Source: Streptomyces sp. LS1784
Lineage (GTDB): Bacteria; Actinomycetota; Actinomycetes; Streptomycetales; Streptomycetaceae
DNA: 37,661 bases
Assembly: GCF_020103755.1 (NCBI RefSeq)
Contig: NZ_JAHSQD010000022.1
Location: 1 to 37,661 of the forward strand
Direction of reading: 5' to 3'
A model generated the notes under the pieces. It was not told the DNA's origin and searched no databases. It worked only from the letters and a program-made list of their open reading frames with translations. This document shows, piece after piece, positions 9,119-13,697 of the stretch. How positions within the stretch are numbered: the first letter of the stretch is position 1; the number at the start of each line of letters is the position of its first letter. The translations under genes and the position numbers were made by a program.

Positions 9119-9434
9119 CGGCTGTCCGCCGCCGTGGCGGCCAGGACGAACCCGAGGCGCGGCAGCCCCGTCGAGCGCTCGGCTCCACATTCGTTCCAGG
9201 GGCTTTGCCGTCCCGCCACGGCGTTCCAAGGCGCGTCGAAACGCGCAGCTCAGGGCACGTTCCGCCGTTCCAACGTCCCGCATTGCCGGGCGGTGCTGGC
9301 GGGCGGGACGGATTGCGGGACAGTCTTCGGTCCGGCGGTGACCGGCGCTGAGCCGGGGCCACCCGGCCGCAGGGCGCGGCCATCGCGGCGAATGCCGCGC
9401 CACGTACCACCCGACCCCGGAAGGAAGCCCTGCC
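9119..9434. other. No gene recognised
   Basis: Just over 300 bases between the WhiB-like relic and the protease start. It holds the upstream region of the protease gene and its ribosome-binding site (GGAAGGAAG, 9419-9427). I see no convincing coding segment or clear hairpin. Confidence 0.45.
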
Positions 9435-10190
9435 ATGCGCACCCCGAACCGACGCCCGATCCTTGTCCTGCTGGCGGCCGCCGGCCTGCTGGCCGCCGGG
9501 GCCGCCCCGGCCGCCGCCGTCCACGGCGGGTCGGACACCACGACCAGGTCCCACCCGTTCGTCGTGGCCCTGGAGACCGCCGCGGGCGAGCAGTGGTGCA
9601 CCGGCGCGCTGATCGCGCCGACCAAGGTGCTCACCGCGGGCCACTGCGTGGCCGAGGCGGCCGACCCGGGCTCACTGCGGGTGATCGCCGGCCGGACCGA
9701 CCTGACCGGCTCCGGCGGTCAGGTCCGCCGGGTGAAGGGCTACCGGGTCGACCCGCGCTACACCGCCGGCCTGGAGCACGACTCCGCCGTCCTCACCCTG
9801 GACCGGCCGCTGCCGCAGGCACCGGTGCGGGTGGCGCGCCAGGGGGACGCGGCGCTCTACCGGTACGGCCGCACGGCCACGCTGCTGGGGTTCGGGCGCA
9901 CCGGCTCGGACGGGCCCGGCACCCACCTCAAGCAGGCGGAGCTGACGCTGGCTCCGCCGGCCTCCTGCGACCCGTACACCTCGCCCGGCGACTCCCCGCA
10001 GTTCAAGGTCTGCGGTCTGCCGCGGGCCGGTACGACGGACAGCGTCTGCAAGGGGGACTCGGGCGGGCCGCTGGTGGTCGGTGGTGTGGTGATCGGCGTG
10101 GTCTCCACCGGCAACAAGTACTGCGACACCCAGTACCCGCTCTCGGTGTTCACCCGGGCCACCGACGTCCCCGCCCAGCTGCTGTCCTGA
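9435..10190 (+). CDS. Secreted S1-family (trypsin-fold) serine protease
   Basis: 251 residues with a Sec signal peptide (basic MRTPNRRP, hydrophobic core, AAA before about residue 29). Mature chymotrypsin fold: catalytic H70 in TAGHC, D116 in EHDSAVL, S209 in CKGDSGGPL. Six cysteines sit at the positions of three conserved disulphides (55-71, 178-193, 205-230). Six residues before the catalytic serine, the site equivalent to chymotrypsin 189, there is serine rather than the aspartate of trypsins, which argues against Arg/Lys specificity. No long propeptide is present. A strong ribosome-binding site (GGAAGGAAG) lies eight bases upstream. It converges with a secreted exopeptidase gene across a terminator hairpin; both would act on extracellular peptides. 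Confidence 0.94.
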   Translation: MRTPNRRPILVLLAAAGLLAAGAAPAAAVHGGSDTTTRSHPFVVALETAAGEQWCTGALIAPTKVLTAGHCVAEAADPGSLRVIAGRTDLTGSGGQVRRVKGYRVDPRYTAGLEHDSAVLTLDRPLPQAPVRVARQGDAALYRYGRTATLLGFGRTGSDGPGTHLKQAELTLAPPASCDPYTSPGDSPQFKVCGLPRAGTTDSVCKGDSGGPLVVGGVVIGVVSTGNKYCDTQYPLSVFTRATDVPAQLLS

Positions 10191-10336
10191 CCGGCGCTGG
10201 TGCCGCCCTGGCCGGCCGGCCAGGGCGCTCTGGACCGCCTCCGGTGACCGGAACCGGGTCCTGTGTGGCGGTCGAATCAGGGGTGCCATTGGTCCGGAGC
10301 CGCCCGTTGCGGGGGACGTGGGGGGCCCGGCGGCCA

Positions 10337-10368
10337 CCCTCCCGGGCGCGTGGGCGCGCCCGGGAGGG
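10337..10368. terminator. Bidirectional terminator hairpin
   Basis: A perfect 14-bp stem: CCCTCCCGGGCGCG at 10337-10350 pairs with 10355-10368 around the loop TGGG. It lies between two convergent peptidase genes, 7 bases from the stop of the minus-strand gene and ~145 bases from the stop of the plus-strand gene. Confidence 0.8.
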
Positions 10369-10374
10369 AAGGGC

Positions 10375-11841
10375 CTAACCGCCGCAGGTCAGGTCCGTCG
10401 CGGGCAGTCGGCCCGTGGTCAGGTAGCGGGTGACGCTGGCGTCCGCGCAGGAGGGGCCAGCCACCACCACGCCGTGGCCCTCACCGCCGGCCACCGTGAC
10501 CATCCGTGCACCGTGCAGGGCCCGACGCATGCCCTGGGCCATGGCCAGTGTCGCCTGGGGGTCCCACTGGTTCTGCACGATCAGCGCGTTGACGTCGTTG
10601 TTCACCACGGTGGCCGGCTCTTCGCCCGCCGACTTCCAGAACGCGCACGGCTGGATGTTGGCCCCCAGGTCCCCGGCCAGCGGGTACCGGGCCCGGTCGC
10701 GGACCGCGTCCCGGCGGTACTGCTCGGGGTCGCGCGGCCAGCTGCGGGTGTCGCCGCAGAAGACGGCCCAGACGGCGGCGGCGGTGTTGTCCGTCGGTAC
10801 GACCGACGGCACCGCCGGCGCGGCCGGCCCGCCCGCGGCGGCGGCCTTCAGTGCGACGATCCAGGGGGTGACGGTCTCGACGTGGACGAACGCGGCGTAC
10901 CCGGAACGGATGGCGTCGCCGTCGAGCGTCCCGTCCTCCGTGGGGACGGGCGTGCGGTCGGCGTGGGCGACCAGGTCCCAGTACGTCTTCCGGACCTCCG
11001 CCGGCGTGGCACCCAGCCCGTACGCCGCGTCGTGTTCGGCGGCCCACTCGGTCCACCGGGTGAAGGCGAGTTCGGCCCCAGGCGCCGACCCCCGGAGCGT
11101 CCCCCGCCACGCGAGCGCCGGATCGAGCGCGCTGTCGAGCACGAACCGGTCCGAGCGCTGGGGGAACATCTGCGTGTAGACGGCGCCCAGGTAGGTGCCG
11201 TACGAATGCCCGAAGTAGGAGATCCTCCGCTCGCCCAGCGCTGCCCGGACGACGTCCATGTCCCGCGCCGTGTTGCGGGTGGTGATGTGCGGCAGCACGT
11301 CACCTGCCTTGGCCCAGCACTTGTCGGCCACCGTCCGGGCCCAGACCACGTCCTTCGCGAACGTCCCTGCGGCGTACGGGTGTTGGAAGGTCCGCTCGTC
11401 GGCCGTCAGGTCGCAGCCGATCGGCGAGCTCTGCCCGACCCCGCGCGGGTCGAACCCGATCAGGTCGAACCGGTCCCGGACCTCCGCCGGCAGCAGCGGC
11501 TCCATCTCCACGGGCATGGTCAGCCCCGGGCCGCCCGGGCCACCGGGATTCATCAACAGCACCCCGTGCCGCTGCTTCGCACTGCCCGCTTTCACCCGCG
11601 ATATCGCGATGTCGATCGTCCGGCCCCCGGGATCGCCGTAGTCCAGCGGCACCTTGACCGTCGCGCACTCGAATGCCGCCGGGCGGCCCGCATCGCAACG
11701 CTCCCACCGGAGTTGCTGCTGCCCGTACCGCTGGAGCGGATCGCCCGCCGCGAACGCCGTCACGGGGGTGAGCGCCGTCAGCACGGTCGTCACCGCCCCG
11801 ACCGTCAGCGCGGAAATCGTCCGTCCGTCTCGCAGAACCAT
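10375..11841 (-). CDS. Secreted S33 alpha/beta-hydrolase, tripeptidyl-aminopeptidase type
   Basis: 488 residues from the ATG at 11841, preceded by AGAGGA; the frame is open further upstream, but this start places a Sec signal peptide exactly at the N-terminus (hydrophobic core ISALTVGAVTTVLTALTP, cleavage after AFA near residue 31). Alpha/beta-hydrolase core: oxyanion segment MNPGGPGGPG at 97-106, DPRGVGQS at 131-138, nucleophile S213 in GHSYGTYLG, acid D427 in NQWDPQAT, and histidine H456 in GEGHGV. The C-terminal TAP-like domain with paired cysteines (C464, C486) matches the secreted streptomycete tripeptidyl aminopeptidase / Slp family, which removes N-terminal peptides from extracellular proteins and peptides. 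It lies convergent to a secreted S1 protease, fitting a nutrient-peptide role. Confidence 0.93.
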   Translation of the reverse strand: MVLRDGRTISALTVGAVTTVLTALTPVTAFAAGDPLQRYGQQQLRWERCDAGRPAAFECATVKVPLDYGDPGGRTIDIAISRVKAGSAKQRHGVLLMNPGGPGGPGLTMPVEMEPLLPAEVRDRFDLIGFDPRGVGQSSPIGCDLTADERTFQHPYAAGTFAKDVVWARTVADKCWAKAGDVLPHITTRNTARDMDVVRAALGERRISYFGHSYGTYLGAVYTQMFPQRSDRFVLDSALDPALAWRGTLRGSAPGAELAFTRWTEWAAEHDAAYGLGATPAEVRKTYWDLVAHADRTPVPTEDGTLDGDAIRSGYAAFVHVETVTPWIVALKAAAAGGPAAPAVPSVVPTDNTAAAVWAVFCGDTRSWPRDPEQYRRDAVRDRARYPLAGDLGANIQPCAFWKSAGEEPATVVNNDVNALIVQNQWDPQATLAMAQGMRRALHGARMVTVAGGEGHGVVVAGPSCADASVTRYLTTGRLPATDLTCGG

Positions 11842-12117
11842 GCCCGTCCTCTGTGCAGAACCAGTGCCTCGGAAGTGCCTCCAGTCTCCGTTCCGCCGCA
11901 CCCGCACCACGTACGGCGCGGGGATGGGCTCACGGTCCGACCTGCGGCGTACGCCGTCGCGCTGACGTAGGACCCCGGTCTCATGGCCCGTCATCCACCG
12001 GCTCAGGAGGGCGGCTTGCCGTCCCGCTGCCGGCAGCCCGCGAACGCGGTCACCCGGCGGAGTGGGGAATGTGTGGTTTCCGGGCGGGGCGGCTGTGTCG
12101 GGCAGTACGGTGCCCGC

Positions 12118-12192
12118 ATGACCGTGCTCGTCCGCCGTCGTCACATCGACTTCGGCCGCATCCACTCCACCGGCTGTCCGGTCATCGTCTGA
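12118..12192 (+). CDS. Putative cysteine-type leader peptide (24 aa)
   Basis: A 24-codon open frame encoding MTVLVRRRHIDFGRIHSTGC followed by PVIV. The RRHxDxxRxxSxxC pattern is that of the short actinomycete leader peptides that precede sulphur and cysteine metabolism genes and act as ribosome-stalling attenuators through a terminal cysteine codon. A hairpin at 12212-12240 begins 20 bases after the stop, as expected for an attenuator. A TACGGT -10-like hexamer lies a few bases upstream, so the message may be nearly leaderless. The unusual point is that no gene follows on the plus strand: the next 650 bases carry a gene in the opposite direction. Confidence 0.7.
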   Translation: MTVLVRRRHIDFGRIHSTGCPVIV

Positions 12193-12211
12193 TCGCCCGA
12201 TCCGCGCGGCC

Positions 12212-12240
12212 GCGCCGTTCGGTTCCGTGCCGAACGGCGC
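12212..12240 (+). promoter_or_regulatory. Attenuator-like hairpin after the leader peptide
   Basis: An 11-bp perfect stem (GCGCCGTTCGG at 12212-12222 with 12230-12240) around a seven-base loop, 20 bases after the leader peptide stop. Its position relative to the Cys codon fits a transcription attenuator, although it could also be a plain terminator. Confidence 0.6.
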
Positions 12241-12340
12241 CGCCGTGGCGGCTGTCGTCCGCCGCCGCCGCGCGGGCCTGCCGTCGCTTTGACCAGCGGT
12301 CCCGCGCGCGGCGCTCCGGACACATCCGTCGGGACGCGGC

Positions 12341-12856
12341 TCAGGCGGTGCCGGCGGTCTCGGTCCGGACGTCGTACGGGCGCAGACCCCGGCTCTCGTA
12401 GTTGCGCAGGGCGTTCGGGTGATCGTTGGTGTCGGTGTGCAGCCAGACCCGCCGGACGGACTCGGCGCCGAGCGGCTCGGTGGCCCACGCCTGGCGCAGC
12501 GCGAGCGTCAGCGCGTAGCCGCCGAGGCCACGGCCGACATGCTCCGGGACGAGCCCGAAGGTGGTGATCTCCACGTCGCCGGCCGGGTGCGGCTCCAGGT
12601 TGGCGACGCCGGCGGGCTCGCCGTCGTGCGTCAGCAGCCAGTACTGGCGCCGGGGGTGCTCGGCGAGGTGGGCCGCCCAGTCGGCGGCGGTGCGGGCGGT
12701 GCTGCGCCAGCCGTGCGGCGCCCCGACGCGCGCCTGGACGGCCTGCACCTCGGGGGACGAGCCGTCGGCCGGGACGAGGGTCAGCGCGGCGATCGGCGGG
12801 GACGGGCGCAGTTCGGCCGGGTCGGTCATCTCCAGGTATGTGACGGTCTTCTCCAT
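12341..12856 (-). CDS. GNAT-family N-acetyltransferase
   Basis: 171 residues starting MEKTVTYLEMTDPAELRPS. The central part fits the GNAT fold: beta-4 region with GEPAGVANLEPHP, then beta-4/alpha-3 with VEITTFGLVPEHVGRGLGGY, where the acetyl-CoA pyrophosphate-binding loop is EHVGRGLGG (Q/RxxGxG/A pattern). A late segment WLHTDTNDHPNALRNYESRG completes the beta-6/beta-7 region. It transfers an acetyl group from acetyl-CoA to an amine that cannot be predicted. It stands alone; the gene fragment at 12920 is divergent from it, and the orphan leader peptide lies convergent beyond its 3' end. Confidence 0.88.
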   Translation of the reverse strand: MEKTVTYLEMTDPAELRPSPPIAALTLVPADGSSPEVQAVQARVGAPHGWRSTARTAADWAAHLAEHPRRQYWLLTHDGEPAGVANLEPHPAGDVEITTFGLVPEHVGRGLGGYALTLALRQAWATEPLGAESVRRVWLHTDTNDHPNALRNYESRGLRPYDVRTETAGTA

Positions 12857-12919
12857 GCGGTGAGACTACGGCCTCGGCCCGCCGCGCCGGCCGGTGGGTC
12901 AGAGGCCGAGGCCGCTCAA

Positions 12920-13221
12920 TTGCGGTGGAAGTCGGGCCTGGTCACCGGCGGCTTCTCCGGCGGCACGGAAGCCGACAAGCGCTACCAGTGGGACGTCGCC
13001 GGCTACCCGGAGTACCAGCTGCCCCTCGTGCCGCTGAAACCCGACCGGGCGTCGTGCCTCATGGAGGACGGCCTCCGGGACACCGACGGCGTGATCGGCA
13101 TGGAGATCGTCACCAACGACCCCAACACCGTGCCCTACTGGCGCACCATGATGGCCCTCAACGGCGTCAAGGGCTACGCCCGTCACATCCCGCCCGGCCC
13201 CTCACCACGCCCACGATCTAG
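12920..13221 (+). pseudogene. 5'-truncated, frameshifted hypothetical gene
   Basis: Strongly coding-looking sequence begins abruptly near 12920 without an ATG or GTG and with no ribosome-binding site (WKSGLVTGGFSGGTEADKR, then YQWDVAGYPEYQLPLVPL, KPDRASCLMEDGLRDTDGVI, EIVTNDPNTVPYWRTMMAL). Near 13200, in a run of C residues, the frame must shift to reach the TAG at 13219-13221 (…LTTPTI); otherwise it would read on through the next gene. The missing start and homopolymer shift make it a remnant of the C-terminal ~95 residues of a larger protein. I do not recognise the family. The next intact gene starts only 14 bases later, so the two were probably co-transcribed. Confidence 0.5.
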
Positions 13222-13235
13222 GACCAGACACAGCC

Positions 13236-13697
13236 ATGACCCCCGACCAGCCCGAATTCCCCTTCCCCGAGACCAGCACCCTCTTCGTCTTCACCCCCAC
13301 CCCCAACACCACCTGGAACCTCACCCTCGACACCTTCACCCAGGCACTGCGCCGACGGGAGGGTGAGCAGGCGTTCGTGCACACCACGGCGGACGGCGGG
13401 GCCTACGGCCCGAGCGACGAGAACGACTGGTGGTTCGATTTCACCGCGTCCGGGACGACCTTCGAGGGCATCGGATCCGGCGTCTCAGGCGACGAGGGGG
13501 TGTCCCTGCGCAACGCGACCGCCGGCGCTGCCGCGGAGTTCGCTGCCTGGTTGATCCAGGAACTCGTACCTGCGAACGGCCGGGTCGACGTCAACACGCG
13601 GGCCGGCATGGAGGCCGGACTGTCCGACGAGGTCCTGGCCGAGCCCACCGCCGCCAGGCTCGAAGCCGTCTTCCGTGAGCACCTGAGCGATCTGTGA
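13236..13697 (+). CDS. Hypothetical acidic protein, 153 aa
   Basis: Begins MTPDQPEFPFPETSTLFVFT and is rich in acidic and aromatic residues (DENDWWFDFTASGTTFEGIG), without signal peptide or membrane segment. Alternating hydrophobic stretches early (LFVFTPTPNTTWNLTLDTF) and a helical C-terminus (AEFAAWLIQELVP) suggest a small alpha/beta protein. Such small acidic soluble proteins placed directly after a larger gene are often immunity proteins of contact-dependent toxins; here the preceding gene is only a relic, so this is speculation. I do not recognise a named family. Confidence 0.72.
   Translation: MTPDQPEFPFPETSTLFVFTPTPNTTWNLTLDTFTQALRRREGEQAFVHTTADGGAYGPSDENDWWFDFTASGTTFEGIGSGVSGDEGVSLRNATAGAAAEFAAWLIQELVPANGRVDVNTRAGMEAGLSDEVLAEPTAARLEAVFREHLSDL

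Follow-up and report, generated by a model that had tools for sequence, protein, structure and literature searches.

A cysteine-type leader peptide that probably outlived its gene in Streptomyces and the beta-carbonic anhydrase that follows it in relatives

RESULTS

Leader, hairpin and neighbouring genes

The window, that is, the whole stretch of 37,661 nt analysed from Streptomyces sp. LS1784, contains on its plus strand an ATG-to-TGA frame for a leader peptide that fits the residue pattern RRHxDxxRxxSxxC. The frame and the features around it are as follows (CA, beta-carbonic anhydrase).

10375–11841, minus strand: gene of a TAP-like alpha/beta hydrolase (peptidase; PF08386/PF00561), the left neighbour, pointing away from the leader
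12046–12068, plus strand: 23-bp junction element matching GCGGTCRCCCGGSGGAGTGRRGA, found by pattern search
12106–12111, plus strand: −10-like hexamer TACGGT, 6 nt before the leader ATG, assigned from its spacing
12118–12192, plus strand: leader peptide frame, 24 aa, MTVLVRRRHIDFGRIHSTGCPVIV, identified from the sequence and its conservation in relatives
12175–12177, plus strand: sole Cys codon of the leader, TGT, read from the sequence
12212–12240, plus strand: perfect 11-bp inverted repeat with a 7-nt loop, 19 nt 3ʹ of the leader stop, identified from sequence and folding
12241–12340, plus strand: probable remnant of a CA 5ʹ untranslated region, by homology to the relative G018, ending at about the GNAT stop codon (12341)
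12341–12856, minus strand: GNAT acetyltransferase gene (PF00583), the convergent right neighbour, not the ancestral target

The full residue pattern occurred once in the six frames of the window, with a mean expectation of 0.0 over 300 first-order Markov resamplings. The stem of the inverted repeat is formed by GCGCCGTTCGG/CCGAACGGCGC, and the fold of 12193–12250 had a minimum free energy (MFE) of −38.9 kcal/mol (z −3.25), equalled in 1 of 200 shuffles. No T-run follows this hairpin, and a consensus terminator scan of 11800–12900 returned 0 terminators. A strict sigma-70 scan placed no promoter at the leader region, an Rfam scan of the window gave nothing at gathering score, and a tRNA/tmRNA scan of the window gave none. 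No same-strand sulphur-related gene lies 3ʹ of the leader in the window, the next gene being the GNAT gene on the minus strand. The 24-residue frame with its pattern, the 11-bp hairpin soon after it and the lack of a plus-strand target, all named in the original prediction, were thus confirmed.

To the right of the GNAT gene, a fragment matching Tox-REase-2 (12924–13220, plus strand; PF15646, 48.5 bits) lacks its N-terminal part and is followed by a 153-aa frame without a Pfam match (13236–13694, plus strand). Judged by sequence, the pair resembles the detached tip of a polymorphic toxin followed by a possible immunity gene.

The leader precedes a carbonic anhydrase gene in relatives

When 61 genomes were searched at the DNA level, the region had clear relatives in two, G018 (82%) and G007 (79%), each with a CA gene behind the leader. 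When the leader was searched genus-wide (70 genomes, E ≤ 1e-4), matches were obtained in 9 genomes including the window genome itself. The leaders of G018, G077, G007 and G090 were 97–99% identical, those of G021, G025 and G086 matched partially, and a short match in G033 was located on another contig than the CA gene of that genome. A frame so short in a GC-rich region might be taken for a chance ORF. That reading can practically be dismissed, as the peptide was identical to that of the window at 24/24 residues in G018 and at 22/24 in G077, G007 and G090, and conservation with a consistent gene context, together with a pattern unseen in 300 resamplings, refutes it.

A protein search detected a CA of 87–100% identity in 8 of the 70 genus genomes (G018, G077, G090, G007, G025, G086, G033 and G021), and in all eight an RRRH[VI]D-type leader stands 106–294 nt before the CA start. 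As a control, paralogous CAs of about 60% identity were inspected where loci had already been made, and none of these 22 loci had the leader. The window genome has no CA of 87–100% identity; its sole CA is a 60% identical paralogue on another contig (C649), without a leader. In the family set (394 genomes), 26 genomes carried a CA at E ≤ 1e-70, in 11 of them with at least 87% identity, and 9 of these 11 (the eight above and G143) had their own leader before it. The idea that the leader accompanies every related CA was rejected, since 15 CAs of 69–76% identity from other genera had none by regular expression. The original prediction had called for other genomes to be searched for the same leader with a downstream gene, and in relatives the same leader heads a CA gene. 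The arrangement of peptidase, leader and GNAT genes was seen in no other of the 70 genomes searched.

Probable loss of the target on the window lineage

In a tree of the rpoB region from 16 genomes, the window genome grouped with G077 (support 0.99) and this pair with G018 (1.00), and both G077 and G018 carry the CA. The next branches, G023 and G084, lack the CA; their placement is weakly supported (0.34), and multiple losses or gains have to be assumed around this clade. With a CA-bearing species as its sister, the window genome most likely lost the target on its own lineage; this is the simplest reading of the sequence comparison, and gains and losses elsewhere are less settled. Deletion of the target, one of the three outcomes offered by the original prediction, is well supported, because such leaders head the CA in 8/8 CA-bearing genus genomes, no such CA was found in the window genome, and its sister carries one. 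The window element is a real cysteine-type leader, of a kind already known, that outlived its gene, and we regard the locus as the left-over control region of a lost COS/CS2-hydrolase-like CA gene with a probability of roughly 0.8. The contig of the window (C430) runs unbroken through the orphan site; with a draft assembly in 1294 contigs, an unassembled CA gene could still lie elsewhere.

Three blocks of homology meet in the region. The peptidase side ends at about 12001 (G084) or 12068 (G077), the CA-control side extends over 12024–12351 (G018) or 12046–12334 (G077), and the GNAT side starts at 12359–12376 (G024, G023 and G084). In G077, the peptidase gene and the leader-CA pair are on different contigs, each preceded by a match to the 23-bp pattern; these two copies are alike at 19/23 positions, and the window copy (12046–12068) at 21/23 to each. 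The pattern was drawn from these same loci, and the reversed pattern gave 0 matches in 4 genomes. Plausibly, recombination at this 23-bp sequence, common to the CA and peptidase promoters, joined the CA control region to the peptidase gene; the CA gene would then have been lost and replaced by the convergent GNAT gene. Alternatively, the 23-bp sequence may be a shared operator.

A simple deletion within a conserved gene order was unsupported: about 2.3 kb separate the peptidase gene of G084 from a gene that neighbours the CA in G018, but an inversion would be required as well to account for the orientations. A search of the window genome with the G018 flank found no empty CA site, the genes that flank the CA in G018 being on separate contigs. 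The stretch of CA-control homology, about 300 bp long and set between two blocks unrelated to it, would also fit the acquisition or duplication of the control segment by itself, the CA never having stood at this site. We consider this improbable given that the window genome is sister to the CA-bearing G077 and G018 and that it holds no other copy of the leader except that on contig C636, a near-identical duplicate of this region.

Contig C636, elsewhere in the window genome the only one that also matches the 23-bp pattern without mismatches, carries a near-identical copy of 9398–12760 with a single base different from C430 (at 9819). Its similarity to 9207–9397 is interrupted by many differences, and beyond this the sequence is unrelated. 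Given this near-identity, the orphan occurs a second time in the assembly, either by recent duplication or because two strains were assembled together.

Expected mode of control in the relatives

Ten leaders were compared, those of the window, the eight genus relatives and G143. All 10 have a TANNNT hexamer ending 6 nt before the ATG, and in all 10 the last Cys codon is TGT. The fixed spacing of the hexamer suggests that transcription probably begins at the ATG or close to it, and a leaderless transcript is predicted.

The hairpin was much less uniform. Its z score was −3.74 in the window, −2.97 in G077, −2.07 in G090, −1.49 in G018 and −1.16 in G007, and in this comparison it was absent from G021, G025, G033, G086 and G143. 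With z ≤ −2 in only 2 of the 9 relatives (G077 and G090), the hairpin was rejected as a general part of the system. MFE folds of the leader plus 150 nt from five orthologues gave no common alternative (antiterminator) pairing, and the sequence of G143 shows a gap of 43 nt between leader and CA. Since the hairpin is not general and this gap is so short, control could be translational or by Rho-type termination rather than by a trp-type attenuator; the window shares the hairpin of such an attenuator but lacks its T-run. The description of the element as a complete attenuation cassette in the original prediction was accordingly too strong: the T-run and an antiterminator were not found, and the hairpin is non-significant in most relatives.

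In the relatives, the leader probably acts as a cysteine gauge for the downstream gene. When Cys-tRNA is scarce, ribosomes would slow at the Cys codon and the sulphur-scavenging gene would be expressed.

Decay or selection of the orphan

What is left in the window would be a predicted leaderless promoter, a cysteine-type leader, a hairpin and about 100 nt of 5ʹ untranslated region: a gauge without anything to control, which, if transcribed, might yield a short RNA ending at or near the hairpin. On the window branch, 0/75 leader sites changed, while changes were found at 7/74 sites of the 5ʹ flank and 10/146 of the 3ʹ flank (0/75 vs. 17/220, Fisher p 0.008). If the leader had been unconstrained for half of this branch, the probability of zero changes would be 0.05. 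The unchanged leader fits a recent loss and continued selection equally.

One possibility considered was that the element now serves as a plain terminator working in both directions, for the leader transcript and for the convergent GNAT transcript. The hairpin of the window is the strongest of the ten compared and is 100 nt past the GNAT stop codon, and the 60 nt after it fold no better than shuffles (z −0.56). Moreover, the window-branch base at 12221 turns a C·C mismatch of G018 and G077 into a pair, which strengthens the stem from −18.7 to −24.9 kcal/mol. Such a single base change is weak evidence, however, the plus strand lacks a T-run, and the unchanged peptide would be left unexplained, which makes this role, also named in the original prediction, possible but rather unlikely.

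A new role, either through read-through under cysteine shortage that yields RNA antisense to GNAT or through trans action of the peptide or of a short RNA, would suit the intact promoter-like hexamer and leader, the excess of flank over leader changes and the convergent gene that begins 100 nt downstream. It is very improbable in our view, as the arrangement is confined to the window genome among the 70 searched and a recent loss gives the same counts. An independent role for the peptide, also proposed at the outset, found no positive support.

The carbonic anhydrase and its link to sulphur

The CA of the relatives meets the Pfam model PF00484 (42.8 bits, gathering score 25.7). It scored 232 bits to Rv1284 (1ylk), 120 to a COS hydrolase (3vqj) and 86 to a CS2 hydrolase (3ten), and is thus closest to the beta-CA Rv1284, not to COS hydrolase, the likeness being one of sequence only. 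COS and CS2 hydrolases are described as clade D of beta-CAs, genes of which actinomycetes carry (PMC8209446, PMC13098186), and we infer a clade D placement for the CA of the relatives.

Two further genomes, G123 and G193, have the CA at the end of a run of monooxygenase frames that is preceded by another cysteine-type leader, ending in RQHIDLQRVAGALC (L206 and L207). In the operon of G123, the only one scanned, the NtaA/DmoA and MsnO8 models were passed by two frames, and a further two, though related, scored below cut-off. As observed at L206 and L207, a cysteine-type leader can thus head a series of FMN-dependent monooxygenase frames that ends with a CA.

The position of the CA behind its own cysteine-type leader or at the end of a leader-headed FMN-monooxygenase operon, together with its likeness to COS/CS2 hydrolases, makes it a candidate carbonyl-sulphide (COS) scavenging enzyme. 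More tentatively, the leader of the relatives may be a switch that senses cysteine and controls an enzyme freeing sulphide from COS or CS2 for cysteine synthesis; the window genome would then be a natural loss mutant in which the switch persists without the enzyme. We put this forward as a possibility rather than as the expected outcome. Actinomycetes are reported to degrade COS (cited in PMC8209446), and a fungus is reported to assimilate COS sulphur with such an enzyme (PMC10880591).

The titles and abstract beginnings of open-licence PMC papers contained no report of a leader peptide before a carbonic anhydrase, and searches of these papers found no account of the CA target or of the orphan state of the leader. 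Few leader peptides demonstrably outlive their gene; in this case one can name the ancestral target, the lineage that lost it and a plausible junction. By the same comparison, CAs of the Rv1284/COS-hydrolase kind are tied to cysteine-type leaders and FMN-monooxygenase operons. If the proposal is true, the CA would be a regulated trace-gas sulphur-scavenging gene of actinomycetes. Should these CAs prove to be induced when cysteine is short, the reason for COS uptake by soil actinomycetes could be put to a direct test.

Known leader families and the wider class

Cysteine leaders are known from mycobacteria, as polycysteine leaderless short ORFs (Canestrari et al. 2020, cited in PMC9031893, PMC9094748 and PMC13236596) and as a cysteine-cluster small ORF with ribosome occupancy upstream of cysA2 (PMC4633059). 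With these Ms4527A-type and mycobacterial leaders, the window leader shares the LVRRRH[VI]D core, a Cys near the C-terminus, a predicted leaderless start and, in its relatives, a downstream sulphur gene. It differs in having one Cys instead of a run of Cys codons, in the CA target in relatives and no target in the window, and in the lack of coupling to a downstream start codon. The window peptide scored 26.4 bits (E 3.6e-6) against NF042936 (Ms4527A family Cys-rich leader peptide), below the cut-off of 45. Against NF042934 (putative leader peptide, cis_reg_atten), which has the same core, it scored 12.6 bits (E 0.083; 11.2 in the genome search), below the cut-off of 27, which was passed by the leaders of G025 (31.3 bits) and of the G123 operon (35.6 bits).

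A scan of 84,980 species with LVRRRH[VI]D[FY]G gave 63 stretches, mostly Streptomyces peptides ending in SAACC. Three were leader-CA pairs (L121, L136 and L152), which are not independent, being probably the same records as G077, G007 and G018, and two were not leader-like (L154 and L168). An SfnB/DszC-like gene was found behind the leader in 43/63 stretches, model scores being taken for one of these genes and falling below the cut-offs. Across L114–L176, mostly from Streptomyces, a leader containing LVRRRHVDFGHVVSAACC stands about 100–900 nt before the SfnB/DszC-like gene, and in some of these stretches a short frame starting with MTTALP lies between the two.

In the window genome itself, 5 places passed NF042934. 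Among its best seven leader places, five had a Pfam-placed same-strand gene, namely a nitrite/sulphite reductase-like gene, an SfnB-like acyl-CoA dehydrogenase, a cysteine dioxygenase, a 2OG-Fe(II) oxygenase and an SsuE-type FMN reductase. The sixth was followed, as judged by eye, by a cysteine-synthase-like frame, and the seventh (L210) was assigned no target. The cysteine or sulphur-gene type originally given to the leader is supported by family resemblance and by the sulphur genes that follow other members of the class. At one of these places (L213, contig C777), the cysteine-type leader precedes the cysteine dioxygenase gene, whose product consumes cysteine, an odd target for control by cysteine shortage.
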